Positions 14,337-60,239 of a DNA stretch of 64,000 bases are shown here, piece by piece. This DNA is from Rhizomicrobium sp. (GTDB taxonomy: Bacteria > Pseudomonadota > Alphaproteobacteria > Micropepsales > Micropepsaceae), in contig JBBCGJ010000001.1 in NCBI GenBank assembly GCA_037200985.1, positions 186,001-250,000 on the forward strand, read 5' to 3'. Position numbers and translations under genes: made by a program. The stretch's first letter is position 1, and each line of letters starts with the position of its first letter. The notes beneath the pieces were generated by a model. That model saw only the letters and a list, made by a program, of their open reading frames with translations. It had not been told where the DNA came from and searched no databases.

Positions 14337-17228
<2,892 letters not shown>

Positions 17229-42910: not shown

Positions 42911-43522
42911 TTACGAGTTGCGCCCGGCGGCGCGAATGCGCATGACGATCCGCGCGGCGCCGCGAAAATCATCGGCGCGAAAATCCGGCGTCGCGGTGCC
43001 GGCCTTTCCGTCCGGCTCGGAAGATTTCACCTGGATCGTGCGCACGCCGGCGTGCTGACCACTTTCGATGTCGGTGTCCCGATCCCCGATCATCCAGCAT
43101 TCCGCCTTGGACAGCCCGTGTTCGCGGATCGCGGTTTCGATCAAGTAGGGGCTCGGCTTGCGCCTGTGGGCGTCTCCGGCAAGCGCCGGCACCACGCCTT
43201 TGGGATGCGAATAGGCGTAGAACGACCCATCCAATTCTACCCCGGCCGCCGCGAGCTGGCGCAGGAATTCGTCGTGCACGGCCTCAAGATCTGCAATCGT
43301 GCACTTGCCCAAAGCGGCGCTCGGTTGGTTGGAAACCACGAAAAGTCTGTACCCGTCAGCCGCCAGCGCGGCGAGGCCGTCCGCCGCACCCGCGCACAGG
43401 CGCAGGTCGGACGGATGAACGGGGGACTCCCATTGATCCGTCGAAGGATTGAACCAGTTGTGATTGAGGACGCCGTCGCGGTCGACGAATACGGCTCGGG
43501 ACGCTACTTCGTCGCTTCCCAT
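42911..43522 (-). CDS. gmhB: HAD-family phosphatase, GmhB-like (heptose bisphosphate phosphatase)
   Basis: 203 residues. HAD motif I is FVDRDGVLNHN (nucleophile Asp14), motif II is VVSNQ, Lys is in RRKPSPYLI and motif III is MIGDRDTDIESGQHAG. This subgroup removes the 7-phosphate of D-glycero-D-manno-heptose 1,7-bisphosphate (histidinol-phosphatase-like relatives exist). The ATG at 43522 lies inside the end of the SIS gene, a 19-bp overlap, so the two are coupled. The zinc-loop cysteines of E. coli GmhB are not obvious. Next to a GmhA-like isomerase, the heptose role is well supported. Confidence 0.82.
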   Translation of the reverse strand: MGSDEVASRAVFVDRDGVLNHNWFNPSTDQWESPVHPSDLRLCAGAADGLAALAADGYRLFVVSNQPSAALGKCTIADLEAVHDEFLRQLAAAGVELDGSFYAYSHPKGVVPALAGDAHRRKPSPYLIETAIREHGLSKAECWMIGDRDTDIESGQHAGVRTIQVKSSEPDGKAGTATPDFRADDFRGAARIVMRIRAAGRNS

Positions 43523-44157
43523 TTCATCTCGTTCTGCTTGAGCCCGGGATGAGAGACGATGAGGTGCCAGACCACGGCCTGGAAGGCCTCGGTGTGCGGC
43601 GTCACCGTATCCGAGCTCATCGTCGGAATCACTACGCAGGCGTCGGCGACCTTCTTCGTGTAGCCGCCGTCGCGGCCGACGACGCCGATGACCCGCGCGC
43701 ACTTTTCCTTCGCGAGCTGGAGGGCGTTGACGATGTTCGCGCTGATGTTCTTCTCGAGATTTCCGCCGCCGACCGAGAAGACGAATACCGTATCGTCCTT
43801 GTCGATCTTGCTCACGCGCAGAAACGCGGCAAAGACCGTCTCCCATCCGTCGTCATTGGTTCGTGCGGTCAACTCCGACACGTTGTCCGTGGGAGCATAC
43901 GATTCGATACCGGCAATCTTCCGGAAGTCGTTAACGGCATGCGCGCAATTTCCCGCGCCGCCACCGACGCCGAGGAAGAATATTCTGCCGCCTGTGTTGC
44001 GGGTGTCGGCGAGGATATCGACCATGCGGTCGATCTGTTCCTGGTCGATCTCGCCGCAAATCTTCGCGGCTTCGATCATGTAACGTGCCGTATAGGCCGT
44101 GGAACTCATTGCATCCCCATAGCGCGCGAGCAAAGTCCGATGCACATATTTAGACAT
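43504..44157 (-). CDS. SIS-domain sugar isomerase, GmhA-like (sedoheptulose-7-phosphate isomerase)
   Basis: 217 residues with a SIS fold. GRIFFLGVGGGAGNCAHAVND is the phosphosugar loop (quoted in part as FLGVGGGAGNCAHA); then ELTARTNDDGWETVFAAFL and VFVFSVGGGNLEKNIS. The arrangement matches GmhA, which converts sedoheptulose 7-phosphate to D-glycero-D-manno-heptose 7-phosphate. GmhA usually has STSGNS where this has SVGGGN, so it is a divergent member. A second Met at 44109 is an alternative start. It lies in an operon with GmhB and the upstream methyltransferase. Confidence 0.78.
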   Translation of the reverse strand: MSKYVHRTLLARYGDAMSSTAYTARYMIEAAKICGEIDQEQIDRMVDILADTRNTGGRIFFLGVGGGAGNCAHAVNDFRKIAGIESYAPTDNVSELTARTNDDGWETVFAAFLRVSKIDKDDTVFVFSVGGGNLEKNISANIVNALQLAKEKCARVIGVVGRDGGYTKKVADACVVIPTMSSDTVTPHTEAFQAVVWHLIVSHPGLKQNEMKWEATK

Positions 44158-44212
44158 GCCGACAACACCAGGGCAAGGGTAGTGGCAAGCCCAGACGCCG
44201 CAGTCGCGAGGC

Positions 44213-45097
44213 TCAGAGGCGGCGCAATTCCGCTTCCTTCTTCGCGCCTTCGGTCGTGCGTGCGGGATGATCCAGCACATGCATCGCGTACATCTGCCTG
44301 ATCCAGACGGCGTTCTTGATGATGCGTTTTTCGCGTAAAAAGGTGTACAGCGAGATCTTGCGCATCGGCCACCGGTCGTTGAATTCGCGGATGACGAGCC
44401 GCTCGCCCGCCCATTCATTGTGCGCATCCAGGAAAACGTCGTCGAAATATAGCGGCGTGACCGGCAGGTAGTTCGCGCTCTGTTTTTCCAGAAGCTCCAT
44501 GCAGGCCACTGCGGAGGAGTAGTAGTCGACGTCGATCGAGACGAATCCGATCACCCCTTCATAGGTCGCGGTGAATTGCGGCACCGTCTCGGAGACGTTT
44601 CCGAGGATCAGCTGCGTATGCGCGGGCAGGCGCTTGCGGAGGCCTTCCTGATCCATCGGGTAGTCGCCGGTCGAGTAATATTCGGGATGATCGCGGTAAT
44701 CGACCGGCGGCGGCATGCCGCCTCCGGTATCGAAGCCGAAGACATCGATTCGCACGCCGGTATCCTTCGCGACCGCGGCCGCGATACGGCTCATCGACAG
44801 CAAGCCGTTGCCGGACGCCACGCCGAATTCGACGACGCCGATCCGCGGTATGCCGAGCTGCTTGGCCATGTCCGCCGCCGCCAGTATGCCGAACGCATAG
44901 GGGCGCTGCTCGAACATATCGAACGCGATCTTCGTGCGGGGGCTGCCGAACACAAGCGCGCCGAAGGCCAGAAGGTTGATCAGAAAGGGCTCGTTGAGAC
45001 GGTCGGATAGATGCTTGTACCAGAAATGACCTGAAAGAAGTTTGGAAAACCGCGACACGCCCGTCCCCGCTGAAACAAATTGCGGGGGGATTATCAA
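44213..45097 (-). CDS. Class I SAM-dependent methyltransferase-like protein
   Basis: 294 residues. A Rossmann methyltransferase core: IGVVEFGVASGNGLLSMS as the AdoMet loop, VFGFDTGGGMP as the acidic strand-2 end and GFVSIDVDYYSSAVACMELL later. The layout resembles TylF/sugar O-methyltransferase-like proteins whose second Asp pair binds metal. First gene of a minus-strand operon with the GmhA- and GmhB-like genes, so it may methylate a heptose or heptose-containing glycan; that is inference. Confidence 0.68.
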   Translation of the reverse strand: MIIPPQFVSAGTGVSRFSKLLSGHFWYKHLSDRLNEPFLINLLAFGALVFGSPRTKIAFDMFEQRPYAFGILAAADMAKQLGIPRIGVVEFGVASGNGLLSMSRIAAAVAKDTGVRIDVFGFDTGGGMPPPVDYRDHPEYYSTGDYPMDQEGLRKRLPAHTQLILGNVSETVPQFTATYEGVIGFVSIDVDYYSSAVACMELLEKQSANYLPVTPLYFDDVFLDAHNEWAGERLVIREFNDRWPMRKISLYTFLREKRIIKNAVWIRQMYAMHVLDHPARTTEGAKKEAELRRL

Positions 45098-45272
45098 GAT
45101 TATCCTACAACTTACCAGCCCTCAGAGCCGGGAGCCAGCGGAGCGAGCCGAGCGGCAGATCGTACGATGGAGGAACGGCAAGGGCGGGCGTAACGACGAT
45201 TTCCAAAGCGGATGACATGGCATAGTCTCGGCGTGAACGGTATGGAAAGCCGAGAAGCTTGCGGAATCACGG

Positions 45273-46352
45273 ATGTCGACGTTTCGACAGTTGAACTCGG
45301 TTCAGTACCTGCGGGCCATCGCCGCGTTCGGCGTACTGGCCTATCATGCCTCGATATCGTTGCTCGACACGGTCGCGCGGATTCCGCTCTGGATCGGCTT
45401 GGGCGGCGTTGACCTGTTCTTTGTCATAAGCGGCTTCATCATGGCCTGGACGACATATGACGAGCCGCTGCCGCCGCAAGAGTTTTTTCGACGGCGCTTG
45501 ATCCGTGTCGTTCCGCTCTACTTCATTTTGACGACCGTCTTTTTCGCGATGGTGCGCGTTTTCCCGTCTCGAAGCACGTCGGCAAGCGTGGTCGCTTATG
45601 CTCAATCCATACTATTCATCCCGTTTTATAACGACAAAGTGCATCTGGTATCGCCCGTGCTCGGGCAAGGGTGGACACTCAATTTTGAGATGTTCTTCTA
45701 CGTCATATTCGCCGTCGCGCTTGCGCTTCCGCGTCGCGTGCGCCTCATCGCCGTTGTCCTATGCCTTGGGACTTGCGCGCTCGCCGGAGCGGTTTTCCAC
45801 TTCACCAACGCGGTCGCCGTGACATATACGAGCCCACTGCTGCTCGAATTTTGCTTTGGTATTGGTATCGCATCGGTCGCACTAAGGTTCAGGGACGGCC
45901 GCTTACCTCACCTTCCGGCAATGCTGGTCGCCGCGTGGGTCGTCGTCTTGTCGCTCGCAGCCTCTATGTACTGGTTCACGGGCAGCATGGTCGACCACCG
46001 GGTCATTGAGATCGGACTGCCGAGCGCCATGCTCCTTCTGACGGCGGTATGGGCGGAGATGTCCGGCGTCCAGTTCAAATCCCCAACCATCCTTTTACTC
46101 GGTGCCGCGTCCTACAGCCTGTATCTGATGGACGGGTTCACGTTGGCCTTCATGCGCCGGGCATGGACTCATACTTTTGAGATCCAATCCTTATTATCCC
46201 ACGCCGGATTCATCTGTGTGTCGCTGGCACTGGGCGGTATCGTGGGAATTGCGATCCACAAAGGCGTGGAACGGCCAATAACGAAATTATTCTCGCGGAA
46301 GCGGCACCATTCGCAGCCGTCAAATGAAGTGCTGAATAAATTGGCGCTCTGA
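45273..46352 (+). CDS. Membrane acyltransferase, acyltransferase-3 (ExoZ-like)
   Basis: 359 residues, about ten hydrophobic segments. Family motifs: QYLRAIAAFGVLAYHASI (His), GGVDLFFVISGFIM and RRRLIRVVPLYFI. GWTLNFEMFFYVIF completes the pattern seen in ExoZ-type enzymes, which acetylate exopolysaccharide. Start ATG at 45273. Divergent from the methyltransferase/heptose operon, followed by a long non-coding stretch. Confidence 0.87.
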   Translation: MSTFRQLNSVQYLRAIAAFGVLAYHASISLLDTVARIPLWIGLGGVDLFFVISGFIMAWTTYDEPLPPQEFFRRRLIRVVPLYFILTTVFFAMVRVFPSRSTSASVVAYAQSILFIPFYNDKVHLVSPVLGQGWTLNFEMFFYVIFAVALALPRRVRLIAVVLCLGTCALAGAVFHFTNAVAVTYTSPLLLEFCFGIGIASVALRFRDGRLPHLPAMLVAAWVVVLSLAASMYWFTGSMVDHRVIEIGLPSAMLLLTAVWAEMSGVQFKSPTILLLGAASYSLYLMDGFTLAFMRRAWTHTFEIQSLLSHAGFICVSLALGGIVGIAIHKGVERPITKLFSRKRHHSQPSNEVLNKLAL

Positions 46353-46869
46353 TGGATCAGTCTGCAACGATTGCTGCGCGACCGCAAGGATGCGCCTGTC
46401 CATCTGTTTTTGATCCGAAAGTCTCGCAGGCAGGTTCAAAAGCTCTGGTCGCAACCGTTTGCTGAGACACAAACGATCGCTGTTCCCGGCTTGTAGCCTC
46501 AGCAAGCTCTCCTCGCCGCCAACGGCTTGACGATCAAAAATGCCAACGCTAGCCTAATGCGCGTCGCGACGATGGCCGCCATGGCGCAGCGCCCTCTTCG
46601 CTTTGACGCTATGACCGACAAACCCAGCCCGATCGTACTCCACATGACATCGCCGAGCAGGCAATCGCACATCACCAGGCGACAATTCGGCGTAACTCAA
46701 GGGCCGGTTGCCTGATGGCCTGGAGACCTGATGCAAGAGCCGCGCAAATTCCATTCGGCCGTCCGGGCTATGTGCGGCATTCCGATCGGCAGAACAGCGG
46801 CGGCAACGCCTAACCCCACAACAACCCGCGCAATCGATTTTATCCCGCGCGCACGAGAGGATGACTGGA
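46353..46869. other. 500-bp region without a clear gene
   Basis: Several short frames cross this stretch but none shows a domain. A 62-residue frame at 46527-46715 has no ribosome site. Composition is somewhat less GC-rich than the neighbouring genes. It leads into the tail-fibre-like gene and holds the promoter candidate at 46527-46555. Confidence 0.45.
46527..46555 (+). promoter_or_regulatory. Promoter candidate for the tail-fibre-like gene
   Basis: TTGACG (46527-46532), 17 bp, TAGCCT (46550-46555). Good -35 and spacing, moderate -10. If used, the leader to the ATG at 46870 would be about 310 bases, long enough for a structured 5' region. Confidence 0.3.
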
Positions 46870-47847
46870 ATGCCCACCTATGAATTCGATGGCCCTGTAG
46901 TTATCGCCGACACTCCCGGAACCTTTCCCGTTGGTAACTCGGCCCTTGTTCAGGCCACGACGAGTGCGGCATCTGGCGGTACCGGAACATTCGCACAGGG
47001 GCTGGCGGTCAGTATTACGATGACGGGCTCGTCGTCTCACGATGGCGATCTCATCGGAATTCAATCCGGAGCGACTTACTCCGGCACCGGAACGTGCGAC
47101 GAGCTCCTGTGCATATTGAATTCCGCGGTTGCCAATAGCGGCAATACCGCCAAGGTTTTTGTCTCGGAGAATCAGCTCTACGTCTCTAACGGCGCAACAG
47201 TCGGCACCGCTTATATGTACGAGGCCAGAGCGCCCATCATCTCGGGCACGGGAACCGTTGCTGCAACGGGTGCTTTTCACGCCCCTCCGATGAAGCTTGC
47301 CGGCGTCACCACCGGCTATGGAATTCTTTGTGAAGGGACCGCCGACTACAACATCCTCGCCGGGTCGCTTAAAATTGGGGCCCTCTCCAATCCCGCCGCC
47401 GGCTATGCGCTGGATGTCACCGGGAACGTAACGATCTCGGGGGCGATCGGATCGGGCATTCACACGCTGGTGACCTCGAGCGATAACACCCCGCTCCTGG
47501 TTTTAAGCTGCTCGAGCGCTAACAGCATTGGCGTTAGCGCGACGATCAATAAGACCGGGGTCACCGGTCTGGCAACCAAAAACCTTGTTTTCGCCACCAG
47601 CAGTTCCATGGCGGACATCGTGATAGGTCCATCCACGGCGGCTCCTTTGGCCTTGGTCGTGAAGGGCAACGGCAATATCGGCATCGGCGTGACGACGCTC
47701 GGCACTTCCGCAGCCCGCGTCATCGGCATCGCCAATGGTGTCGCGCCCACCAGCAGCCCGGCGGGAATGGGACAGCTGTACGTCGAAAGCGGTGCACTGA
47801 AATATCGCGGCAGCAGCGGCACGGTAACGACGGTCGCGCCGGCGTAG
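46870..47847 (+). CDS. Tail-fibre-like / surface-repeat protein of unknown function
   Basis: 325 residues, rich in Gly, Ser, Thr, Ala and Val, with few charges and no transmembrane helix or signal peptide. It opens [19 protein letters not shown] and contains [15 protein letters not shown] and [16 protein letters not shown]. It ends [25 protein letters not shown] (partly quoted: [17 protein letters not shown]). Such closing segments occur in phage tail-fibre and beta-solenoid fibre proteins. No chaperone peptidase domain follows. ATG 46870 is preferred to 46861 because agagg lies nine bases upstream. The identity as a phage or surface fibre is a composition-based inference. Confidence 0.6.
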
Positions 47848-47882
47848 ACGGCGCTTCCCGCATCGACAGCAAGGCAAACTCC

Positions 47883-48194
47883 GTGAAGCACATAAGACTG
47901 GACGGCATCGTGAACGAGGAAACCGGCGAGCCCGTCGATGCGGGGGCCGTCATCGTTGAGGCCATCACGAAGACGCCGGCGGCCGGCAGCCAAGGCATCA
48001 ATCCCATGGAGCAGCTACAGCGCATCCGCATCATCGACGCTGTGCTGAAGAGGAAAGACAGGGGAAGCCTCGACCTGGAAGACGCGGATTACGACCTCCT
48101 GGTGTCGATCTGGAAGGTCGTGCCCTTCCTGACCGTGCAGCGCGCGATCATCGAGCTGACGCGGCGCATCCTGGCTCCGGATGGGGCCTCATAA
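47883..48194 (+). CDS. Small protein of unknown function next to the tail-fibre-like gene
   Basis: 103 residues: MKHIRLDGIVNEETGEPVDAG, then an Ala/Gln-rich linker and a helical C-terminal half (LQRIRIIDAVLKRKDRGSLDLED, quoted in part, and RAIIELTRRIL). Soluble, no cysteine. The size and acidic/helical make-up suit a phage structural or tail-assembly accessory protein, but no family was recognised. Start is GTG with aagg upstream, 35 bp after the fibre-like gene, so the two form one unit. Confidence 0.6.
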   Translation: MKHIRLDGIVNEETGEPVDAGAVIVEAITKTPAAGSQGINPMEQLQRIRIIDAVLKRKDRGSLDLEDADYDLLVSIWKVVPFLTVQRAIIELTRRILAPDGAS

Positions 48195-48263
48195 AGCTGG
48201 CTCTCGTTGAATGAACTGACGAAAGGCGTTCGGCCGATGGGCCGCCAATGCGCACCGTCGAAG

Positions 48264-50267
48264 TCAGGGATTTAACATCCTGGGCGCGGCCCGTCGCGCC
48301 CAAGATGCGAACGCTTCGGCGACCTTGCGACTGCCAGGCTCGGACAAGTGGGAAATGTCCCGCATATAAAGATCGGGCCCCGCAATCATCCGGCAGACGC
48401 CGGAATCGCAAAACACCGGCACGGGGTCGAAGACGCCCATGGCGGGATGCCTCAACTTGAGTCGTTCTACCAGCCTTCGGAAGGACGACTGCTCCCCGAG
48501 GACCGCTGCCGTCGAGATGAGGCAAGTCTCGGCCGGCGGCTCGAAGGGACGGGCCATGCACTTGCGGACGTCGTAGGCCAAATGCGGTGTGTCATAGAAC
48601 AAGACCACTTTTACGCCACGGCGCTCGATAAAGGTGATGGTCCTGTCCAGGCCCACTTCGTAGGCCCGTTCGAGCGACAAACCCTTTGTTCCCGCTATGG
48701 ACATGAAATCGTCCGGCATCATGCTGCCGTCGGTCCAATCGCGCCTATGCCCCTGTGCGTCCCAGATGGGCCACAATGCGCTGATGATGACGAGCCGCAG
48801 GTTCGGATCGTGTTCGACGATGCCTTGCCACATCGCCTGCTGCTTCGCGATCAGTTTTCCGGCGCACGGATTTTCGGCCAGGTCGACGCCAGGCAGCCGG
48901 GCAATGGCGTCGGTCAATGGTTCGCAAGTTCCGATATTGAGCACGGTCTCCTTCGGAAAGACCGCCGCCATGCCCGGATAAAGATGATTGGCGTGGCTGT
49001 TTCCCAGCAGAAGGATCGTTGGGGGGCGTGGCGAACTCTGCATGCAGAACCACCAGCCGCCCACCTCTGGCCAGGGGTGGACCGCCTTGCAGGTGTCGTT
49101 GGTCAAGTTCGCCCAGTTCAATTCGATGTTGGAAGGCGTCCTGGCGAGGCGTTGATAGGGGTAAGGCATCGCGACAGCGGCTACGGCGAGGCAAGCCGCC
49201 GCGGCTGACAGCGCGCCAATCACGCGCCGATGCAGCCATCGCCGGCGTACCGGCTTTTCGACCAGCTCGTAGGTGGCCGCGGACAGCGCGACGGCCAGCA
49301 GGACGAGGGCGAGCTTCAGCCAACGATTGGTATCGATGTTGAATGCTTCGATCCGCGTGAGCACAAGCAACGGCCAATGCCACAGATAGAGCGGATAGCT
49401 GATGCGGCCGATATAGGTCGCGAGCCGGTTCGAGAGCAGAAACCGGCTGGGCCAGGATGCCGGTCCGGCCGCGATCACGAGCGCCGCCCCTGCGGTCGGG
49501 AGTACGGCGTACCAGCCCGGAAAGGCGATCTGGTCGGAGTAAAGAAAGGCCGGAACCAGGATCAGCAGAAGGCCCGACGAAGCGGCGATGGCGGCCCGCG
49601 TGCCGGCGTGCGGCGCGGCCGCGTCGACGCGGCGATTGGCGAGAACCGCGCCCAGCACGAATTCCCAAAGCCGTGTCGCCGGAAGGTAGAACACCGCCGT
49701 CGAATAGGCGTGCACAAATTCGACATTGAGGGCGAAGGACGCCAGACCGACCAGCAGCATGATCGTCCAGCGCCGCTTGCGGAACCACCACAGCAGGAGC
49801 GGCCATACCGCATAGAATTGCTCCTCGACGCCCAGCGACCATAGATGCAACAGCGGCTTCAGATCGCGATCGATGTCGAAATAACCCGCGTCCAGCCAGG
49901 AGGTGATGTTCGGCACGAAAAACACCGCCGCCAGGACGTCGCGCTTCAGCCGGGCGAACTCATCGGGCAGGAACAGGATCGCGCCCGCCACGAACACGGC
50001 AGCGAGTACGATCAGCAGCGCCGGAAGAATGCGGCGGGCGCGGCGCAGATAGAACTCGCGCGCGCGGAAAGTGCCGTCGTCCACGCCCTCAATGATGATC
50101 TTGGAGATCAGGAAGCCGGAAATGACGAAGAAGACGTCGACGCCGATGAAGCCGCCGGGAAAACGGAACGGTACGGCATGATAGCCGACCACCAGCAGGA
50201 CGGCCAAGGCACGCAAGCCATCGACGTCGGGCCGATAATGCAGCGCCGGCGCGCGGGACGCATCCAT
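48264..50267 (-). CDS. OafA-type acyltransferase with C-terminal SGNH domain
   Basis: 667 residues. An N-terminal acyltransferase-3 membrane domain (YRPDVDGLRALAVLLVVGYH, GFIGVDVFFVISGFLISK, FYLRRARRILPAL) is followed after about residue 400 by a periplasmic SGNH hydrolase/transferase domain: LLLGNSHANHLYPGM (Ser nucleophile) and MRDISHLSEPGSRK (Asp-x2-His). Two-part enzymes of this kind O-acetylate O-antigen or other surface glycans. The ATG at 50267 is chosen because the family N-terminus starts there. It follows the SDR gene by 10 bp. Confidence 0.9.
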   Translation of the reverse strand: MDASRAPALHYRPDVDGLRALAVLLVVGYHAVPFRFPGGFIGVDVFFVISGFLISKIIIEGVDDGTFRAREFYLRRARRILPALLIVLAAVFVAGAILFLPDEFARLKRDVLAAVFFVPNITSWLDAGYFDIDRDLKPLLHLWSLGVEEQFYAVWPLLLWWFRKRRWTIMLLVGLASFALNVEFVHAYSTAVFYLPATRLWEFVLGAVLANRRVDAAAPHAGTRAAIAASSGLLLILVPAFLYSDQIAFPGWYAVLPTAGAALVIAAGPASWPSRFLLSNRLATYIGRISYPLYLWHWPLLVLTRIEAFNIDTNRWLKLALVLLAVALSAATYELVEKPVRRRWLHRRVIGALSAAAACLAVAAVAMPYPYQRLARTPSNIELNWANLTNDTCKAVHPWPEVGGWWFCMQSSPRPPTILLLGNSHANHLYPGMAAVFPKETVLNIGTCEPLTDAIARLPGVDLAENPCAGKLIAKQQAMWQGIVEHDPNLRLVIISALWPIWDAQGHRRDWTDGSMMPDDFMSIAGTKGLSLERAYEVGLDRTITFIERRGVKVVLFYDTPHLAYDVRKCMARPFEPPAETCLISTAAVLGEQSSFRRLVERLKLRHPAMGVFDPVPVFCDSGVCRMIAGPDLYMRDISHLSEPGSRKVAEAFASWARRAAPRMLNP

Positions 50268-50277
50268 CTGTGTGGGT

Positions 50278-51514: not shown

Positions 51515-52243
51515 ATGAGCATTCGTGGCGTGAAACACCCTGCGGCGTTCCTCGACTATCTGGCCGGGACCAAGTTCTCCGGGATGGACCGGATGGATTT
51601 CGACTTCGCACCGCCCGCTGACAGAATAAAGGTTATCGAAGATCTGGTTCGCGGGAAGTCCTGCCTGCACATAGGCTGTTGCGATCACATTCCGGCCATT
51701 CGGGAGAAGATCCAAACCGGTGAGTGGCTGCATGGGCGCCTCACCAAAGCGGCGTCATATTGTCTCGGCGTGGACATCAACGCGGAATCGGTCGCCATCG
51801 CGAAGAAGGAATCCGGTCTCGACAACATGATCATTGCCGATATCACAAACCCGACCCCGGTTGTCGAGATCGCCGATCGGCATTGGGATTATGTGGTCTT
51901 CGCCGAAGTCCTGGAGCACATCGGCAACCCGGTCGCTTTCGTACGGACATTTCTGGAAACCTATCGCGGCAAGGTGGACTATTGCGTGTTCACGGTGCCC
52001 AATGGCTTCAACGCCGGCAATATCCGCGGTGCATTCTCGGGCTCCGAGACGAACAACACCGATCATCGATTCTGGTTCACGCCCTTCACCATTTCGAAGG
52101 TCGCCTACGATGCGGGACTCGATCCTTTGTCCATCGAGCCCGCTTGCATCATCAAGCCCAACCCGATCAAGCGCGCGATCCTGGCGCTGTTTCCGATGCT
52201 GGCTTCGACTCTCATTTTCGTGGGCGCGACGAAGCAGCCGTGA
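51515..52243 (+). CDS. Class I SAM-dependent methyltransferase
   Basis: 242 residues. The AdoMet loop is degenerate (CLHIGCCDHIP) but GVDINAESVAIAKKE and DYVVFAEVLEHIGNP are typical class I features. HRFWFTPFTISKVAYDAGL resembles glycan-linked methyltransferases. First of two adjacent methyltransferase genes upstream of algD; likely modifies a sugar or lipid-linked intermediate. The 247-bp upstream gap, divergent from the SDR gene, probably holds its promoter. Confidence 0.8.
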   Translation: MSIRGVKHPAAFLDYLAGTKFSGMDRMDFDFAPPADRIKVIEDLVRGKSCLHIGCCDHIPAIREKIQTGEWLHGRLTKAASYCLGVDINAESVAIAKKESGLDNMIIADITNPTPVVEIADRHWDYVVFAEVLEHIGNPVAFVRTFLETYRGKVDYCVFTVPNGFNAGNIRGAFSGSETNNTDHRFWFTPFTISKVAYDAGLDPLSIEPACIIKPNPIKRAILALFPMLASTLIFVGATKQP

Positions 52244-52276
52244 CGTCGGGCCGGTTTCGGACCAGGGGCAGAGTTG

Positions 52277-53017
52277 ATGGCCGGTATCGCGGCGAGAGCC
52301 AAGGAATGGGGGATGCGGCAGCAATTCCTCCCCGGGCCGCTCGGCATTTTCGTCAACCCAGGCTATATTTCGCGACGCGGACTGCAATTGGCAATCGCGA
52401 AATATGCGCCGCAATTCAAAGGCCGTTTGCTCGATCTGGGTTGCGGCCGCAAACCCTACCGGCCGCTCTTCGCCAACGTTTCCGAATATGTCGGCGTCGA
52501 TGTCGAGGTCTCCGGTCACGAGACCAAGCGCATGGAAGTCGACGTCTATTACGACGGCAAGACGCTGCCCTTTCCGGACGATCATTTCGACGGAATATTC
52601 AGCTCGGAAGTGTTCGAACATGTCTTCAATTTGCCCGCGATCCTGAACGAACTTCATCGGGTGCTGCGTCCCGGCGGAATCATGCTGATCACCGTTCCGT
52701 TCGCGGTCGAGGAACACGAGGTTCCCTACGATTTCGGTCGCTATTCGTCTTTCGGGCTCAAGCACATCCTCGAGACGGCGGGATTCGAAATCCGCATCCA
52801 GGAAAAACGCGGGACCTTCATCGCGGCGCTCACGCAATACGTGGTGTCCTATCTCGCGCGGCGCTGGCCCCTGTCGAAGAGCACCGCCGTGCGGTTGATC
52901 GTCACGCCGATCCTGTTCGCGCCGATCAACGCCATCGGCATGCTGTTCGCTGCCATCCTGCCGAAGGACCAAAGCCTATTCATCAGTAATGTCGTGGTGG
53001 CGTCGAAGCCGGGATGA
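52277..53017 (+). CDS. Class I SAM-dependent methyltransferase
   Basis: 246 residues. LLDLGCGRKPYRPLF (AdoMet loop), GVDVEVSGHE, FDGIFSSEVFEHV and LHRVLRPGGIMLITVPF are clear Methyltransf_11-type motifs. A hydrophobic stretch near the C-terminus (VTPILFAPINAIGMLFAAIL) suggests contact with the membrane or a lipid-linked substrate. ATG 52277 preferred to TTG 52274. Lies 33 bp after the preceding methyltransferase. Confidence 0.85.
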   Translation: MAGIAARAKEWGMRQQFLPGPLGIFVNPGYISRRGLQLAIAKYAPQFKGRLLDLGCGRKPYRPLFANVSEYVGVDVEVSGHETKRMEVDVYYDGKTLPFPDDHFDGIFSSEVFEHVFNLPAILNELHRVLRPGGIMLITVPFAVEEHEVPYDFGRYSSFGLKHILETAGFEIRIQEKRGTFIAALTQYVVSYLARRWPLSKSTAVRLIVTPILFAPINAIGMLFAAILPKDQSLFISNVVVASKPG

Positions 53018-53202
53018 CATAGCGGATCGCATAGAGTAATGGACCGCCGGTTTGGGCGCCGTATTGCGATGCCGCTTTGCAGATTTCCTCAGGGGCTCAA
53101 GTCTTTGACTTCCCGGGCGCCGGTTTGTTATCGTGCTGGTGCATACCCCCACGAAATTCTCTGTCGAGCCGGCGGAGCTCGCTGTCGGACCGGATAAAAT
53201 TG

Positions 53203-54522
53203 ATGAACGTTGCCATCTTCGGCTTGGGTTATGTGGGCGTGGTTTCCGGAAGCTGCATCGCACGGGACGGGCATCGCGTCATCGGCGTCGATCCGGTCAA
53301 GGAAAAGGTCGACGCGATCAACCAGGGCCGCTCGCCCATTGTTGAGCCCGGCCTGGGCGAGTTGATCCAGACCTTGCGGCAAAGCGAGATGATATCGGCG
53401 ACGCAGGACGTGCTGTCGGCCGTCAAAGCCTCCGAGCTGATCATCGTCTGCGTCGGCACGCCCAGCATGGTGAACGGCAATCTCGACCTCCGTTACGTGC
53501 ATGCCGCCCTGGCGGAAATCGGCCGCGCGCTCGCCGAGGTCGATGCCTATCGCGTCGTCATGGTTCGAAGCACCGTTCTGCCCGGTACCGTACTCGGCGA
53601 GGCACTGGCGATTCTCGAGCGCGAATCCGGCAAGCGCGCCGGCGTCGATTTCGGCCTCTGCTTCAATCCGGAATTCCTGCGCGAAGGCACGGCGATCCAG
53701 GACTATCTGTCGCCGCCCAAGACCGTCATCGGCGCCATGGAAGGCGACGAGCGTTCGGTGGCCGTGGCCAAAGCGCTGTACGAGGGCCTCACCGCGCCCC
53801 TGATGGTCGTGACCATTCCGGTGGCCGAGATGGTCAAGTACATGGACAATACCTGGCACGCGCTCAAGGTGGCATTCGGCAACGAAGTCGGCTCGATCTG
53901 CAAGAAGCTCGGCATCGACAGCCACGAGGCCATGGCGATCTTCGTGCAGGACACGAAGCTGAACCTGTCGCCCTATTATCTGTGGCCGGGCTTCGCGTTC
54001 GGCGGTTCCTGCCTGCCGAAGGACGTGCGGGCGCTTACCTATCGCGGGCGCAGCCTGGATCTGTCGCTGCCGCTCCTCGAAAGCCTGTTGCCGAGCAACC
54101 AGTTTCATATCGACCGCGCCTTCGACATGATCGCGGCCGACGGGCGCCGTCGCATCGGCGTGTCGGGACTTAGCTTCAAGGCCGGCACCGACGATTTGCG
54201 TGAAAGCCCGATCGTGCAATTGGTCGAGCGCCTGATCGGCAAGGGCTATGAGCTTCGTATCTATGATCCGGACGTCCGCCTCGCCTCCATCGGCGGCGCC
54301 AACCAGCGCTATATCCTCGAACACATCCGGCACATTTCGCGCCTGATGGTGGACACGCCGGAAGATCTCGTCCGGGATTGCGACATCCTGATCTTGTCGA
54401 AAAAGGACGAACACACCGCGAAAGTCGTCGATCTGGCGCGTGAGGGCCAGGCGATCGTCGATCTCGTCCGGGCGGCGCCGGGACGGCGGCACGAAGAAAG
54501 CTATCATGGCATCTGCTGGTAA
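53203..54522 (+). CDS. algD: GDP-mannose 6-dehydrogenase
   Basis: 439 residues. Oxidises GDP-mannose twice to GDP-mannuronate. NAD motif FGLGYVGVV, INQGRSPIVEPGL, VRSTVLPGTV, NPEFLREGTAI, catalytic Cys270 in GFAFGGSCLPKDVRALTY, LSFKAGTDDLRESP, and the ending GICW, which I recall for Pseudomonas AlgD. The match along the whole length favours AlgD over UDP-glucose dehydrogenase. The ATG at 53203 sets the NAD motif at the N-terminus. No alg8/alg44-like synthase is seen, so the mannuronate probably enters a repeat-unit glycan. The following glycosyltransferase overlaps by 17 bp. Confidence 0.92.
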   Translation: MNVAIFGLGYVGVVSGSCIARDGHRVIGVDPVKEKVDAINQGRSPIVEPGLGELIQTLRQSEMISATQDVLSAVKASELIIVCVGTPSMVNGNLDLRYVHAALAEIGRALAEVDAYRVVMVRSTVLPGTVLGEALAILERESGKRAGVDFGLCFNPEFLREGTAIQDYLSPPKTVIGAMEGDERSVAVAKALYEGLTAPLMVVTIPVAEMVKYMDNTWHALKVAFGNEVGSICKKLGIDSHEAMAIFVQDTKLNLSPYYLWPGFAFGGSCLPKDVRALTYRGRSLDLSLPLLESLLPSNQFHIDRAFDMIAADGRRRIGVSGLSFKAGTDDLRESPIVQLVERLIGKGYELRIYDPDVRLASIGGANQRYILEHIRHISRLMVDTPEDLVRDCDILILSKKDEHTAKVVDLAREGQAIVDLVRAAPGRRHEESYHGICW

Positions 54523-55759
54523 GCGCCCCGGCGTTCTGATCATCGTACAGAATCTGCCGGTGCCGTTCGACGCGCGCGTCTGGCAGGAATCGACGACATT
54601 GACCGCCGCCGGCTACGACGTCAGCGTCATCTGCCCCAAAGGCAAGGGCTATACCGCGGCCCACGAAGTGCTCGACGGCGTGAACATCTATCGCCACGAC
54701 ATGCCGTTCGAGGCCAACAGCGCGGTCGGCTTCCTAGTCGAGTACGCCGTGGCGCTGTTCCACGAGACCCGTTTGGCGTGGCGCGTTCTGTTCCGGCACG
54801 GCTTCACCGTGGTCCACGCCTGCAATCCGCCCGACCTGATCTTTCTGGTGGCGCTGCCCTTCAAGCTGCTCGGAAAGAAATTCGTGTTCGACCAGCACGA
54901 CATCGTGCCGGAATTGTTCGAGGCGAAGTTCGCCCGGCGCGGCTTCTTCTATTGGCTGCTGCGGATGTTCGAGCGGATGACCTTCGCTTGCGCGAACATT
55001 TCGATCGCTACCAACGGTTCCTACCGCGAAATCGCGGTCGGCCGAGGCGGGATGAAGCCCGATCGCGTCTTCGTGGTCCGCAGCGGACCCAAGCTCGAGC
55101 GGTTGCGGCTCATGCCGCCCGATGCCGCACTGCGTCGCGGCCGGCGGTATCTGGTCGGCTATCTGGGCGTCATCGGAACCAGCGAGGGGCTTGACGGCCT
55201 GCTGCAGGGCATCGACCACATCGTCAACAAACGCGGCCGGAAGGACGTGCAATTCGTCATTGTCGGCGGCGGCCCCGAACTCGAGAATATCCAGCGCATG
55301 GCGGGCGAGATGGGTCTGGCGGACGACATCATCTTCACCGGCCGGGTATCGGACGAGGAGCTCCTGCGCTGGCTGAACACAGCCGATGTCTGCGTCAACG
55401 CGGACGCCGTGAACACGATGAACGACCTGTCGACCATGAACAAGATCGTCGAATACATGGCGCTGGGAAAGCCGATCGTGCAGTTCGATCTGCGCGAGGG
55501 ACGGGTTTCCGCCGGCGAGTCCTCGCTCTACGCGAAGGCGAATGACTGGGAGGATTTCGGCGATAAGGTGATCGCCCTTCTGGACGATCCGGCCAAGCGG
55601 GAGGCGATGGGCGCGTTCGGCCGTCGCCGGGTCGAAACCGAACTCGCATGGCAATACGAAGCGCCGAAGCTGCTCGCGGCTTACGCGCGCGTTGCGCCGG
55701 TCGCGGGAACCGCCCGCACCCCGGAGCAACCCGGCCCTATCAAGAGTGAAGTGTCATGA
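54506..55759 (+). CDS. GT4-type glycosyltransferase
   Basis: 417 residues, GT-B fold. N-terminal domain with IIVQNLPVPFDARVWQE and FDQHDIVPE; C-terminal domain with GYLGVIGTSEGLDGLL, FVIVGGGPELE and the donor-site motif NDLSTMNKIVEYMALGKPIV (EX7E-like). Retaining transferase using a nucleotide sugar at the cytoplasmic membrane face. Its overlap with algD suggests it may use GDP-mannuronate or another GDP sugar, as inference. A methyltransferase gene overlaps its end (ATGA). Confidence 0.9.
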   Translation: MASAGKRPGVLIIVQNLPVPFDARVWQESTTLTAAGYDVSVICPKGKGYTAAHEVLDGVNIYRHDMPFEANSAVGFLVEYAVALFHETRLAWRVLFRHGFTVVHACNPPDLIFLVALPFKLLGKKFVFDQHDIVPELFEAKFARRGFFYWLLRMFERMTFACANISIATNGSYREIAVGRGGMKPDRVFVVRSGPKLERLRLMPPDAALRRGRRYLVGYLGVIGTSEGLDGLLQGIDHIVNKRGRKDVQFVIVGGGPELENIQRMAGEMGLADDIIFTGRVSDEELLRWLNTADVCVNADAVNTMNDLSTMNKIVEYMALGKPIVQFDLREGRVSAGESSLYAKANDWEDFGDKVIALLDDPAKREAMGAFGRRRVETELAWQYEAPKLLAAYARVAPVAGTARTPEQPGPIKSEVS

Positions 55760-56496
55760 CCGCATCGGAAGCCGCCAGCAAGACCGCCGCCTATTTCGAC
55801 AGCGAGTCGCCGACCTGGGACGACCGCTATGTGCGCCAGAGCCATTTTCGCACGCGCCTGGAGACCTTGCGCAATTGGCTGGCCGCGCTGCCGCCCAATC
55901 TGAGCGTGCTGGATTTCGGCTGCGGTACCGGCGTCGCATCGGCGCAGCTCGCGAGCTTGGGCCATCGCCCGACCGGCGTGGACATTTCCGAGAAGATGGT
56001 CGAGACCTCCCGCGCCGCGCTGCAGCGCTCGGGCATTCCCGAAGACCGGTTCACCTTCGAGCATATTTCGCCCGACGGCCGGGGCGCGTATCTCGAGAAG
56101 ACCTATGACGGCATGGTGAGCCTCGGGGTCTTCGAATATACCGACGATCCCGCCGCGCTGCTGAAGCTGCTCACCACTCGCATCAGGCCGGGCGGATTTC
56201 TGATCATGTCGGGTCCGAACCGCCGCAGCCCGGTGCGCTGGATGGAACATTTCGTTTTTCGCCATCCGCGCTATTTCGCGGTGATCCCGGGGCTCAAACG
56301 GCTCGCCTCGCCGGACAGCTACAAGCACTATCAAAAGCACCAATTCGTGGCCGGCGAACTCGCCGCCTTGCTGGACAGTTGCGGGATGACCTTGGAGCGG
56401 ACCTTCTATCACGGCGGTCCGTCGGTCCTGGGAGGGCTCGAGCATACGCCGTGGCTGGGCATGACGATGATCCTGCAGTTCAAGAAGCGGCCCTGA
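55756..56496 (+). CDS. Class I SAM-dependent methyltransferase
   Basis: 246 residues. VLDFGCGTGVASAQLA (AdoMet loop), GVDISEKMVE, YDGMVSLGVFEYTDDP and IRPGGFLIMSGPN. Translationally coupled to the preceding glycosyltransferase by a 4-bp overlap, which suggests methylation of the sugar that enzyme adds. Followed by a 229-bp gap before the heptose genes. Confidence 0.85.
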   Translation: MTASEAASKTAAYFDSESPTWDDRYVRQSHFRTRLETLRNWLAALPPNLSVLDFGCGTGVASAQLASLGHRPTGVDISEKMVETSRAALQRSGIPEDRFTFEHISPDGRGAYLEKTYDGMVSLGVFEYTDDPAALLKLLTTRIRPGGFLIMSGPNRRSPVRWMEHFVFRHPRYFAVIPGLKRLASPDSYKHYQKHQFVAGELAALLDSCGMTLERTFYHGGPSVLGGLEHTPWLGMTMILQFKKRP

Positions 56497-56725
56497 TGGA
56501 TCTGGCGGCTCGCCACGCGCCGCCGCCGGTTCCCGCCCGGCCTCTGTTGCAATGCGGTGGCCATTTGCTAATTAGAGGCCTTGTCTGGGGTGTTGGGGCT
56601 CTTGGGCCTAGGACGCGGCGCCGGAAGGTTGTCCAAATTCTCTTGCGTGGGCGTGAGGGATTGCTGCGCCGGCCGTCGCGCCGATCGCGGCCTTACGCCG
56701 GCGGCGCGGGTAAAAAGGGGTTTTG

Positions 56726-57685
56726 ATGAAAGTCTTCATAGCGGGCGGAGCGGGCTTCATCGGAAGTCACTTCGTTGATCATTTCATGAATTCCACGGAC
56801 GCGACCGTTACCGTGTTCGACAACTTCACCTCCGGCCAGATGTGGCATTTGAAGGCGCATGAAGGCAGCTCGCGTCTGCGCGTCGCGCGCGGCGACCTCA
56901 AGGAGCGCGAGCAGATCGTCGAAGCCTCGGCGGGCCACAATATCGTCTATCACTTCGCCTCCAATCCCGACATCGCCAAGGCGATGGCGCATCCCGATGT
57001 CGATTTCTGGGAAGGCACCTATCTCACCCAGAATCTGCTGGAAGCGATCCGGATCAACAAGATTCCCGCCCTGGTCTATGCGTCGGGCAGCGGCGTCTAT
57101 GGCGACACCGGCGAAAAGTCGGTGACGGAGGACTATTCGCCGATGCTGCCGATCTCGCCCTATGGCGCGAGCAAGCTTTCATGCGAGGCGATGATCCACG
57201 CCTATTGCCACATGTTCGGATTGACCGCGCATGTGTTCCGGTTCGCAAACGTCGTCGGACCGCGGCAGACGCACGGCGTCGGCTTCGATTTCGTCAGGCG
57301 TTTGCAGAACGATCCGAGCTGGCTGCGCATCCTGGGCGACGGCACGCAGAGCAAGTCCTATATCCACGTCTCCGATATCGTGGCGGGCATCCAGCACTTC
57401 GCGGCCCGCGATCGGGAGAAGTTCAACTATTACCACCTCGCGACGGGCGATTATATCACCGTGAACGAGATCGCCGATCTCGCTTGCGAGATCATGGGCA
57501 TCAGCAATGTCCGCTACGAATATTCCGGCGGCAACCGCGGATGGTCCGGCGACGTGCCGATCGTGCGGTTCGATCTCTCCAAGACGCATGCGCGCGGCTG
57601 GGATGCCAAATTCGGCACGCGCGAGGCGCTGCGGCGCTCCATCCTGGCGATGCTCGACGAGATCGGATTCAAGAGACAGGCCTGA
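56726..57685 (+). CDS. NAD-dependent epimerase/dehydratase in the heptose operon
   Basis: 319 residues. NAD motif GGAGFIGSHFVDHF, YASGSGVYGDTGE (Ser), SPYGASKLSCEA (Tyr-x3-Lys), FRFANVVGPRQTHGVGFDF. Resembles UDP-glucose 4-epimerase / GDP-sugar modifying SDRs. A ribosome site (aaaagggg) precedes the ATG; a TTG directly before it is an alternative. Its stop overlaps the HddC-like start, so it may act on GDP-heptose, for example as an epimerase or dehydratase, though this is only positional evidence. Confidence 0.82.
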   Translation: MKVFIAGGAGFIGSHFVDHFMNSTDATVTVFDNFTSGQMWHLKAHEGSSRLRVARGDLKEREQIVEASAGHNIVYHFASNPDIAKAMAHPDVDFWEGTYLTQNLLEAIRINKIPALVYASGSGVYGDTGEKSVTEDYSPMLPISPYGASKLSCEAMIHAYCHMFGLTAHVFRFANVVGPRQTHGVGFDFVRRLQNDPSWLRILGDGTQSKSYIHVSDIVAGIQHFAARDREKFNYYHLATGDYITVNEIADLACEIMGISNVRYEYSGGNRGWSGDVPIVRFDLSKTHARGWDAKFGTREALRRSILAMLDEIGFKRQA

Positions 57686-58392
57686 TGCAAGTCGCAATCC
57701 TCGCCGGCGGACTCGGCACAAGGCTCTATCCGTTGACGCAGGATATCCCCAAGGCGCTGGTGCCGGTGCTCGGCAAGCCCTTCCTGGTGCATCAGCTCGA
57801 GCTCCTGCGGCGCAACGGCGCCACGGAGATCGTGATGCTGGTGGGCCATTATGCGGCCCAGATCGAGGAATGTCTCGGCGACGGCGCGGCTCTCGGCCTC
57901 AAGGTGACCTATAGCGACGAAGGCGATTTGCGGCTGGGCACCGCTGGAGCGGTGAAATACGCCGAGTCCAAGCTGGCCGACCGCTTCTTCCTGCTGTTCG
58001 GCGATTCCTATCTGCCGGTCGATTATCAGGCGATCTGGAACGACTTCGAGAGTGCCGGCGCGGATGCCATGATGACCGTGTACCGCAATGAGAACGCACA
58101 CGACACCAGCGATATCGCCGTCGAAGGCGGCTATGTGACGGCGTACCAGAAGACCCCGCCCTTGCCGAACGCGATCTACATCAACTACGGCCTGATGGCG
58201 CTGAAGCGCTCGACGTTAAGCGGAATGGTTCGCGGCCAGGCCGAGTCGCTCGAAGCCTTTCTGAAGCCGATCATCGCCGCGCATCAATTGAAGGCGCATG
58301 AAGTCGATCGGCGCTTTTACGAAATCGGTTCGCCGGCGGGACTGAAGGATTTCGAATCCTTTTTATTGGGCAATGGAGGAAACTCGCGATGA
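57685..58392 (+). CDS. hddC: Sugar-1-phosphate nucleotidyltransferase, HddC-like
   Basis: 235 residues. Nucleotidyltransferase signature AILAGGLGTRLYPLTQDIPK and ALVPVLGKPFLVHQ, then LLLFGDSYLPVDY (metal-binding Asp). Short single-domain form, like HddC, which joins heptose-1-phosphate with GTP to give GDP-D-glycero-alpha-D-manno-heptose. Substrate assignment rests on the overlap with the HddA-like kinase (4 bp) and on the GmhA/GmhB-like genes in the same locus. Glucose-1-phosphate or mannose-1-phosphate enzymes share the fold. Confidence 0.78.
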   Translation: MQVAILAGGLGTRLYPLTQDIPKALVPVLGKPFLVHQLELLRRNGATEIVMLVGHYAAQIEECLGDGAALGLKVTYSDEGDLRLGTAGAVKYAESKLADRFFLLFGDSYLPVDYQAIWNDFESAGADAMMTVYRNENAHDTSDIAVEGGYVTAYQKTPPLPNAIYINYGLMALKRSTLSGMVRGQAESLEAFLKPIIAAHQLKAHEVDRRFYEIGSPAGLKDFESFLLGNGGNSR

Positions 58393-59375
58393 TCATCGTC
58401 CGCGCGCCGCTCAGAATTCCATTGGGAGGCGGGGGAACAGATCTTCCCTCCTATTATGAGAAGCGTGGCGGTGCCCTGATCAGCGCCGGCATCAACAAAT
58501 ACGTCTACGTCTCGGTGAACAAGCGGTTCGAGCAGTCGATCCGCGTGAGCTACTCCAAGACCGAGATCGTCGACAAGTTGGACGAGATCGAGCATCCGAT
58601 CGTTCGCGAGGCGCTGCGGCTTCTCGGCCTCGACCGGCAGATCGAGATCACGACCGTGGCCGACATTCCCGGAAATTCGGGCATGGGCTCGTCCAGCACG
58701 TTCGCGGTGGCGCTGCTCCTGGCGCTGCACACCTACAAGCGCGAGCATGTCGATCCGCGGCGGCTGGCGGAAGAAGCCTATCATATCGAGCGCGAGATTC
58801 TCCACGAGCCCGTCGGCAAGCAGGATCAGTATCTGGCCGCATATGGTGGCATCACCACGATGGACATCGGCCGCGACGGCGAGGTCGAGGTCGGCAATGT
58901 GGTCATGTCCGAGCAGACGCATGACGATTTCGAAAGCAATCTTCTGCTGTTCTACACCGGCATCCATCGCAAGGCGTCGGAAGTGCTCGCGGCGCAGGAC
59001 AAGGGCGCCAAGGAAAGCGACGAGGCGATGTTGCAGCGCCTCGATACGATCAAGGACATCGGAATGAAGATCCGGTCCTGCGTGACTCAAGGAGACATAC
59101 GCGGGTTCGGCGCGCTGATGCACACGCATTGGGAGATGAAGCGCAAGCTGTCCTCGAAGGTCTCGAATGCGGAGATCGACGAATGGTACGAACTTGCGAG
59201 GCGGAATGGCGCCCTCGGCGGCAAGCTGATGGGTGCCGGCGGCGGCGGGTTCCTGCTGATCTATTGCGACTCCGAAAAGGCGAGACTTCGAAGCGCATTC
59301 GCCGCGGCAGGGCTGCGCGAAGTCCGGTTCCATGTCGACTGGGAAGGCGCAAAAGTGCTGGCAAACGTCATATAG
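58389..59375 (+). CDS. hddA: GHMP kinase, HddA-like (heptose 7-phosphate kinase)
   Basis: 328 residues. GHMP family with RAPLRIPLGGGGTDLPSYY at the N-terminus, the ATP loop IPGNSGMGSSSTFAVAL and the C-terminal GGKLMGAGGGGFLLIY. The GGGGTDLP opening is typical of D-glycero-alpha-D-manno-heptose 7-phosphate kinases and fucose-type kinases. It would make heptose 1,7-bisphosphate for GmhB. Start overlaps the HddC-like gene (ATGA). A 123-bp gap separates it from the transaldolase-family gene. Confidence 0.85.
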   Translation: MIIVRAPLRIPLGGGGTDLPSYYEKRGGALISAGINKYVYVSVNKRFEQSIRVSYSKTEIVDKLDEIEHPIVREALRLLGLDRQIEITTVADIPGNSGMGSSSTFAVALLLALHTYKREHVDPRRLAEEAYHIEREILHEPVGKQDQYLAAYGGITTMDIGRDGEVEVGNVVMSEQTHDDFESNLLLFYTGIHRKASEVLAAQDKGAKESDEAMLQRLDTIKDIGMKIRSCVTQGDIRGFGALMHTHWEMKRKLSSKVSNAEIDEWYELARRNGALGGKLMGAGGGGFLLIYCDSEKARLRSAFAAAGLREVRFHVDWEGAKVLANVI

Positions 59376-59498
59376 TATAGGATAGTCGGCTGCCGAGTTT
59401 GGGGTGCGACAGGCCGTTTTTCGAATTTGATTGACTTAGGGTGAGCCCCGCCGCAATGACTATTCAGGTGGGCATTTCCTTTTAGGGGACGGTGAGCA

Positions 59499-60239
59499 AT
59501 GTCGCGTGTTCAGAATCTTAAGATTAAGATTTTTGCCGACGGGGCGAACCTGCAGGGCATCAAGGACCAGTCCGCCAATCCGATCGTGAAGGGATTCACC
59601 ACGAATCCGACGCTTATGCGCGGGGCGGGCATCACCGATTACAAGGGCTTCGCGCTGGAGGTCCTCAAGGTCATTCCGGACAAGCCCGTGTCGTTCGAGG
59701 TCTTCGCCGACGATTTCCCCACGATGGAAGAGCAGGCGCGGGAAATCGGCTCCTGGGGCAAGAACGTCTATGTGAAAATCCCGGTCAGCAACACCAAGGG
59801 TGAATTCGCCGGTCCGCTGATCCGCACGCTCTCCCATGCCGGCATCAAGCTGAACGTGACGGCGATCATGACGCTGGATCAGGTGTCGAAAGTCGGCGAC
59901 GCGCTGGACGAAAAAACGCCGGCCGTCGTGTCGGTGTTCGCGGGCCGCATCGCAGACACCGGCCGCGATCCGGTGCCGCATATGCGCGACGCCGTCGGAA
60001 TCCTGAAAGGGCGCCCGAAGGCCGAGCTGCTGTGGGCAAGCCCGCGCGAACTGCTGAACATTTTCCAGGCCGACGAGATCGGCTGCCACATCATCACGGT
60101 CACCAACGACGTCATCAAGAAACTCGCTCTGGTCGACAAGGACCTCGACGAATATTCGCGCGAGACCGTCCTGATGTTCTACAAGGACGCGACGGCGGCC
60201 GGATACACCATTCCGACAACTGTGCCAGCCGCTTCTTGA
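59499..60239 (+). CDS. Transaldolase-family protein
   Basis: 246 residues, single-domain class I aldolase barrel. GFTTNPTLM (32-40) and the Schiff-base lysine Lys93 in NVYVKIPVSN are diagnostic; TAIMTLDQV follows. The length is close to the TalC/fructose-6-phosphate aldolase group, shorter than classic transaldolase. In this locus it could supply sedoheptulose 7-phosphate, the entry compound of the heptose route. That function is inferred from context; a C-C bond lyase for another sugar is the alternative. Confidence 0.85.
   Translation: MSRVQNLKIKIFADGANLQGIKDQSANPIVKGFTTNPTLMRGAGITDYKGFALEVLKVIPDKPVSFEVFADDFPTMEEQAREIGSWGKNVYVKIPVSNTKGEFAGPLIRTLSHAGIKLNVTAIMTLDQVSKVGDALDEKTPAVVSVFAGRIADTGRDPVPHMRDAVGILKGRPKAELLWASPRELLNIFQADEIGCHIITVTNDVIKKLALVDKDLDEYSRETVLMFYKDATAAGYTIPTTVPAAS

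Follow-up and report, generated by a model that had tools for sequence, protein, structure and literature searches.

A Transaldolase in a Nucleotide-Sugar Module of Rhizomicrobium sp.: Evidence for a Higher-Sugar Pathway and a Possible Route to GDP-Octose

Genes of the Locus

The window analyzed here, a stretch of 64,000 nucleotides that represents bases 186001-250000 of a Rhizomicrobium sp. genome assembled as one 4.64-Mb contig, contains a surface-polysaccharide locus with six genes whose predicted products would form and activate a sugar. A sequence-only reading of this locus had interpreted these genes as a complete route to guanosine diphosphate (GDP)-heptose, split over two strands and accompanied by an unexpected transaldolase. 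The gene content itself is observed directly, given that all six genes are intact reading frames, correctly placed in that reading, and their superfamilies are confirmed by Pfam.

On the minus strand, a HAD-IIIA phosphatase gene of the GmhB/LmbK kind (42911..43522; HAD-like hydrolase Pfam, 9e-17) shares 19 nt with the gene of a SIS isomerase (43504..44109; SIS_2 Pfam, 1e-9). The start codons of both genes were selected by comparison with homologues, and are predicted. The plus strand carries an LmbM-like SDR epimerase/dehydratase (56723..57685), an HddC-like sugar-1-phosphate nucleotidyltransferase (57685..58392; NTP_transferase Pfam, 9e-22), a GHMP sugar-phosphate kinase of the HddA/LmbP superfamily (58389..59375; GHMP kinase Pfam, 4e-14), and the transaldolase (59499..60239; TAL_FSA Pfam, 3e-40). 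The stop codon of the SDR gene and the ATG of the HddC-like gene have one base in common, and the SDR gene is placed in the operon of the HddC-like gene, in line with the overlap noted in the sequence-only reading. The HddC-like and HddA-like genes overlap by 4 nt and are followed, after a gap of 123 nt, by the transaldolase.

The transaldolase is the only one of the six to pass the curated cut-off of a specific NCBIfam family, TIGR02134 (357 bits, cut-off 281.95), while the HAD protein also exceeds the cut-offs of two broad HAD-IIIA subfamily models of this database. The scores against the heptose-pathway models are low, with 56 bits for the SIS protein in the gmhA model (cut-off 209), 81 bits for the HAD protein in the gmhB model (cut-off 178), 168 bits for the kinase in the HddA model (cut-off 600), and 83 bits for the nucleotidyltransferase in the HddC model (cut-off 300), with the MurU model giving this last protein 113 bits. 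As two control loci of the ordinary GDP-heptose type (L165 and L166) also remain below the strict cut-offs, the evidence is provided by the relative scores, which are higher in the controls for the SIS protein (192-193 bits), the kinase (396-416), and the nucleotidyltransferase (154-164). In the Rhizomicrobium genome, the SIS protein of the window is the only match to the gmhA model, with no canonical GmhA above the cut-off, and no HldE kinase was found above its own cut-off (best match 33 bits, cut-off 345).

Association of the Transaldolase with the Sugar-Activation Genes

All ten of the catalytic residues compared in the transaldolase (D, N, E, K, T, S, F, R, S, R) are present. At two positions of the active site, the protein has E and F, as in TalB, where fructose-6-phosphate aldolase has Q and Y, a difference which presumably separates the two activities. 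The identity of an aldolase of this type, which the sequence-only reading had considered as a possible objection, was rejected on this basis. The LmbR-type proteins of the lincosamide pathway have Q and L at the same positions, and the two transaldolases are therefore assigned to different subfamilies.

Proteins above the TIGR02134 cut-off occur in six of the 398 genomes of the phylum, including that of the window. Of the other five, one (L034) has a contiguous kinase-nucleotidyltransferase-SIS-HAD-transaldolase block, another (L036) contains all five genes, a third (L037) has SIS-HAD-transaldolase, and a fourth (L035) SIS-transaldolase; no partner is seen in the last (L033), where the contig ends 295 bases from the transaldolase. 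In L036, the transaldolase-HAD-SIS group is accompanied by two GHMP kinases (9646-14303), one of which groups with the kinases of the present module and the other with those of the HddA type. The contiguous five-gene block recurs in unrelated genomes, far beyond chance, and this supports the earlier proposal that the genes on the two strands of the window belong to a single pathway.

A broader sample was obtained from a scan of named genomes, in which the best 80 of 575 relatives were chosen by the similarity of the transaldolase. Of these loci, 49 extend for 3 kb or more in both directions, and in this set a SIS gene lies within 3 kb of the transaldolase in 35, a HAD gene in 40, and either of the two in 43. 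Six loci have neither (L080, L082, L098, L103, L105, and L115), of which L103 and L105 contain other genes of the module, and L115 has SIS and HAD genes approximately 6 kb away. The SIS gene is found at this distance in 14 named phyla, identified by record titles and mostly from metagenome assemblies. At 24 control loci of other small transaldolases, which provide a narrower view of up to 1.5 kb on each side, no SIS gene was found, and a HAD gene was present at two, both in genomes that contain the SIS gene of the module.

Because the 80 loci had been chosen by transaldolase similarity, the test was repeated from the side of the isomerase. Window-type SIS proteins scoring at least 200 bits were found in eight of 396 genomes, with the next best match at 72 bits. 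The TIGR02134 transaldolase is present in the same locus as the SIS gene in five of the eight, the two being 15 kb apart in the window. In the other three (G053, G105, and G133), whose assemblies are fragmented, the transaldolase is of a different, TalC-like kind and is encoded on a contig other than that of the SIS gene. It directly adjoins a HAD gene in two of these genomes (G053 and G133), and lies 1.4 kb from one in G105. Selection by the kinase gave a different result. The HddA model matches 94 genomes, from which 20 loci were drawn, leaving out three known transaldolase carriers (G000, G292, and G351), and no transaldolase was found in any of the 20 fetched loci (10.6-20 kb each) with five types of query, including TalB and FsaA of E. 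coli.

The genome of the window has another gene of the TAL/FSA family, at 3.41 Mb, with residues of the transaldolase type, so the copy in the window is not needed for central metabolism. The sequence-only reading was thus right to treat the transaldolase as a functional member of the pathway, as it is a recurrent partner of the isomerase/phosphatase pair, but it is a regular partner in other genomes rather than the oddity of this locus which that reading had supposed. The interpretation of the genes as one higher-sugar pathway that includes the transaldolase is well supported.

Types of Isomerase, Nucleotidyltransferase, and Epimerase

The isomerase of the window has a predicted GmhA fold (AlphaFold model, pLDDT 91.6), and differs from GmhA in the loop that contains the STSG motif, which is presumably the phosphate loop. 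This loop has 18 residues in the window and in 65 of the 68 SIS proteins from module loci, and 18-21 residues in all five LmbN-type proteins. In all 13 of the other SIS proteins compared, that is, seven from HddA-selected loci, GmhA and DiaA of E. coli, and the four best non-module matches, it has 12. The three short-loop proteins from module loci (L038, L045, and L108) are of the GmhA type, with the metal-site letters H-E-Q-H. The window protein, with a six-residue insertion and the letters H-D-E-H, is thus not a GmhA-type isomerase, and it resembles the LmbN type in the insertion that they have in common. For GmhA itself, the accessible part of its description names just three serines and a threonine (PMC5387315).

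In a tree with outgroups, GmhA and DiaA of E. coli and four SIS proteins of HddA loci are placed outside by a branch with 98/99 support. An earlier tree without outgroups separated the module and LmbN proteins from the rest (98/93), and placed the SIS protein of L045, which is of the GmhA type, among the latter.

The nucleotidyltransferases provide a similar picture. In the tree, 26 of the 30 sequences from module loci, including that of the window, group with LmbO and two HddA-selected sequences (95, starred), while the other HddC-like sequences fall outside, and the score of the window protein in the HddC model, of about half that of the controls, also places it outside the HddC type. The SDR epimerase of the window, with 40% identity and 243 bits to an LmbM homologue (in L142), groups with LmbM (94). 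The kinase belongs to a clade of its own within the HddA/LmbP superfamily, and its score in the HddA model is well below those of the control kinases.

Comparison with the Lincosamide Octose Pathway

In the accessible parts of two accounts of the lincosamides (PMC4351081, PMC12945683), a GDP-octose is formed by the transaldolase LmbR, the isomerase LmbN, the kinase LmbP, the phosphatase LmbK, and the guanylyltransferase LmbO, followed by LmbM, LmbL, LmbZ, and LmbS. The first of these gives LmbR, LmbN (a C8 isomerase), LmbK, and LmbO as confirmed, and a third source, likewise in its accessible part, derives the octulose from fructose 6-phosphate or sedoheptulose 7-phosphate and ribose 5-phosphate through the action of LmbR (PMC5854111).

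The comparators were taken from a Streptomyces-like genus, in which six of 392 genomes match the transaldolase model, five of them in lincosamide-type cassettes and the sixth as a fragment. All five cassettes have homologues of the nine genes K, L, M, N, Z, P, O, S, and R, those of K, L, and M lying in the next stretch in the first genome. The gene order is that of the tables available in PMC4351081 and PMC12945683, except that K is inverted in two. In L142, Pfam recovers the HAD, nucleotide-sugar dehydrogenase, epimerase, SIS, Gfo/Idh, nucleotidyltransferase, DegT, and TAL families, and NCBIfam the GHMP kinase. A contiguous M-L-SDR-Z-P-O-N-K-R arrangement is also found outside this group, in a member of the Methylococcales (L081).

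Compared with the lmbK-L-M-N-Z-P-O-S-R cassette of lincomycin and celesticetin, the window has the same kit of transaldolase, SIS isomerase, GHMP kinase, HAD phosphatase, nucleotidyltransferase, and LmbM-like SDR. It shares the placement of a transaldolase among sugar-activation genes, the loop insertion of the isomerase, and a nucleotidyltransferase and an SDR related to LmbO and LmbM. It differs in being a surface-polysaccharide locus, in the subfamily of its transaldolase, in its kinase, which falls outside the LmbP clade, and in the lack of a confirmed counterpart of LmbL, LmbZ, or LmbS, of which it holds distant homologues. The module thus works like the lincosamide route, but is not classed as a member of it, because the kinase is of another clade, and the placement of the phosphatase and of the LmbL, LmbZ, and LmbS homologues is ambiguous.

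Proposed Route and Alternative Explanations

The reading favored here, which is judged to have slightly the better of an even chance, is that the transaldolase makes octulose 8-phosphate, which is converted into a GDP-octose for the surface polysaccharide. Sedoheptulose 7-phosphate is a normal substrate of transaldolases and is available from the pentose phosphate pathway. As a dedicated enzyme is needed for octulose 8-phosphate and not for this heptulose, and as the isomerase is LmbN-like, eight carbons would be a better reading than seven. In the route proposed, in which each substrate, the chain length, the nucleotide, and the order of the steps are all predicted, the transaldolase would extend ribose 5-phosphate by a three-carbon unit taken from fructose 6-phosphate or sedoheptulose 7-phosphate, producing octulose 8-phosphate, and the LmbN-type isomerase would convert this into octose 8-phosphate. 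The GHMP kinase would then add a phosphate at C1, the HAD phosphatase would remove the 8-phosphate, the nucleotidyltransferase would form the GDP-octose, and the LmbM-like SDR would epimerize it, after which other enzymes might oxidize or methylate the sugar.

The principal alternative is a GDP-heptose, for which the transaldolase would add to the supply of sedoheptulose 7-phosphate, and a seven-carbon aldose phosphate, of the manno or another configuration, would be made by the LmbN-like isomerase. The superfamilies and the logic of the steps are those of the GDP-D-glycero-alpha-D-manno-heptose route (GmhA, HddA, GmhB, and HddC), the transaldolase apart, and a heptose is consistent with the fold of the isomerase and its best matches among solved structures, both of the GmhA kind, with the position of the HAD protein on the GmhB side, and with the assignment of TIGR02134 to the transaldolase family, for which sedoheptulose 7-phosphate is an ordinary substrate. 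Among solved structures, the four best matches of the kinase comprise two that are named heptose kinases and two that are named simply sugar kinases; the kinase tree, which was considered as a means of judging the chain length, does not decide the matter. This alternative appears unlikely, while retaining an appreciable share of the probability, given that the pentose phosphate pathway already supplies the heptulose in a genome with another small transaldolase-type gene, that none of the 20 HddA-selected loci has a transaldolase, and that the isomerase lacks a GmhA-type loop and the nucleotidyltransferase lies outside the HddC groups. For the same reasons of loop, LmbO grouping, and HddA-selected loci, the description of the genes as a complete GDP-heptose route is not borne out in that form. 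It is far less probable that the transaldolase is unrelated to its neighbors, as a horizontally acquired enzyme of the pentose phosphate pathway, with the other genes making some other GDP-sugar. The TIGR02134 members of Ligilactobacillus and Treponema, whose annotated neighbors include no SIS or HAD-IIIA gene, would fit this explanation, but it is opposed by the 43 of 49 named loci, chosen by transaldolase similarity, with a SIS or HAD gene close by, and by the selection from the SIS side, in which the link is seen in all eight genomes and with two types of transaldolase, although in three of them it is to a HAD gene on a contig other than that of the SIS gene.

A number of observations weigh against the octose, or against the markers on which it relies. 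Neither the kinase nor the HAD protein of the window falls in with the octose set. The nearest non-module relatives of the kinase come from transaldolase-free loci, and the HAD protein, whose position in the tree is ambiguous, falls with that of L100 on the GmhB side rather than with LmbK, with weak support (91, unstarred), while 22 of the 24 HAD sequences from module loci in the thinned set are placed otherwise. The union of the module SIS proteins with LmbN in the tree with outgroups (91/87, unstarred) is not decisive, and a topology with LmbN apart from all the other SIS sequences is not rejected (p-AU 0.175). The letters H-D-E-H were rejected as a mark of the LmbN type, as they are also found in three of the seven SIS proteins of HddA loci and in all four of the other close SIS proteins. 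The LmbM-like SDR is present in two transaldolase-free loci (L174 and L177), the nucleotide-sugar dehydrogenase of the window does not fall within the LmbL group, and the Gfo/Idh protein of the window is on a long branch. Proteins above the TIGR02134 cut-off occur with no SIS gene annotated nearby in Treponema, Ligilactobacillus, and a Streptomyces plasmid, so membership of this family alone is not a mark of an octose, and the window differs from these in having its transaldolase in a nucleotide-sugar module. One genome with an over-cut-off transaldolase (G179) gave no match in the SIS search, of which it may not have formed part, and the contig breaks off near its transaldolase. The lincosamide-type comparators are themselves homologues recognized by their gene set rather than proven producers, and other lincosamide genes were not seen near the five clusters among the 25 commonest of 116 families, with 57 of the 91 flanking frames scanned.

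In the transaldolase, an insertion that follows the catalytic lysine was also considered as a mark of an octose, and was rejected because it is common to the Ligilactobacillus, Treponema, and Streptomyces plasmid members.

Distribution and Implications

A more tentative proposal, to which somewhat less than an even chance is given, is that a widespread nucleotide-octose pathway serves bacterial surface glycans, with types of isomerase, nucleotidyltransferase, and epimerase in common with the lincosamide pathway, and with at least two types of transaldolase and two activation systems having been recruited, in the 14 phyla recognized by record title. If this is correct, the surface polysaccharides of many phyla would have linear eight-carbon sugars of the lincosamide kind among their ordinary components, and such sugars may therefore be common, yet unrecognized, in bacterial polysaccharides. 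Gene sets annotated at present as heptose genes would then be wrongly labeled, and the sugar pathway of the lincosamides would have a testable origin. The loop of the isomerase, combined with a neighboring transaldolase, would provide a marker for finding such loci. Among the matches listed in the open-licence literature, no description of such a module in polysaccharide loci was found. Branched octoses, a different kind of sugar, are known from polysaccharides, according to the accessible part of one source (PMC4753412).

The two activation systems are seen among the named loci that extend for 9 kb or more in both directions. Of these 31 loci, 16 have a protein of an HldE-like cluster, 10 a GHMP kinase and a nucleotidyltransferase, none both, and five some other state. 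In these relatives, HldE-like fused proteins, comparable to those of the adenosine diphosphate-heptose pathway, replace the kinase and nucleotidyltransferase, which is not the case in the window. The cluster, found in 28 of the 80 named loci, is represented by a frame of approximately 795 aa (L091:8537-10921) with a cytidylyltransferase-like and a PfkB domain, in the reverse of the order in HldE; residues 1-300 of this frame have no Pfam match and may precede the true start.

Transketolase halves are also found near the transaldolase, the C-terminal half in 10 and the N-terminal half in eight of the 49 loci, as judged by cluster representatives. Such split transketolases, with separate N and C halves (for example, L078:17596-18705 and L115:5008-5871), represent a second pentose phosphate enzyme at these loci.

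Accessory Genes and Related Loci

The window contains a number of other genes that may be involved in the tailoring of the sugar. A methyltransferase gene (44213..45097, minus strand), whose match to Methyltransf_24 is below the cut-off of the model, adjoins the SIS gene, and its product might carry out an O-methylation. On the plus strand, a nucleotide-sugar dehydrogenase (53203..54522) is of doubtful membership in the module. Further downstream, an SDR of the adh_short family (61620..62411, plus strand) overlaps the gene of an LmbZ-like Gfo/Idh/MocA oxidoreductase (62408..63394, plus strand; 32%, 127 bits), and both are possible tailoring enzymes; a similar pair is present in L081, L100, and L119.

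The last of these loci, on plasmid 3 of Lawsonia intracellularis (532-17081), has an octose-type kit on a single strand, with genes for an LmbM-like SDR, a SIS isomerase, a HAD phosphatase, a transaldolase, a nucleotide-sugar dehydrogenase, an SDR, a Gfo/Idh protein, a GHMP kinase, and a nucleotidyltransferase.

Approximately 10 kb from the SIS/HAD pair of the window, positions 31863-33053 encode a homologue of the DegT-type aminotransferases (33%, 152 bits to the LmbS homologue of L142), which probably acts in the pathway of a different amino sugar. The central part of the polysaccharide locus also contains, at 46861-47847, a frame of 328 aa with a high content of Ala, Gly, Ser, and Thr.

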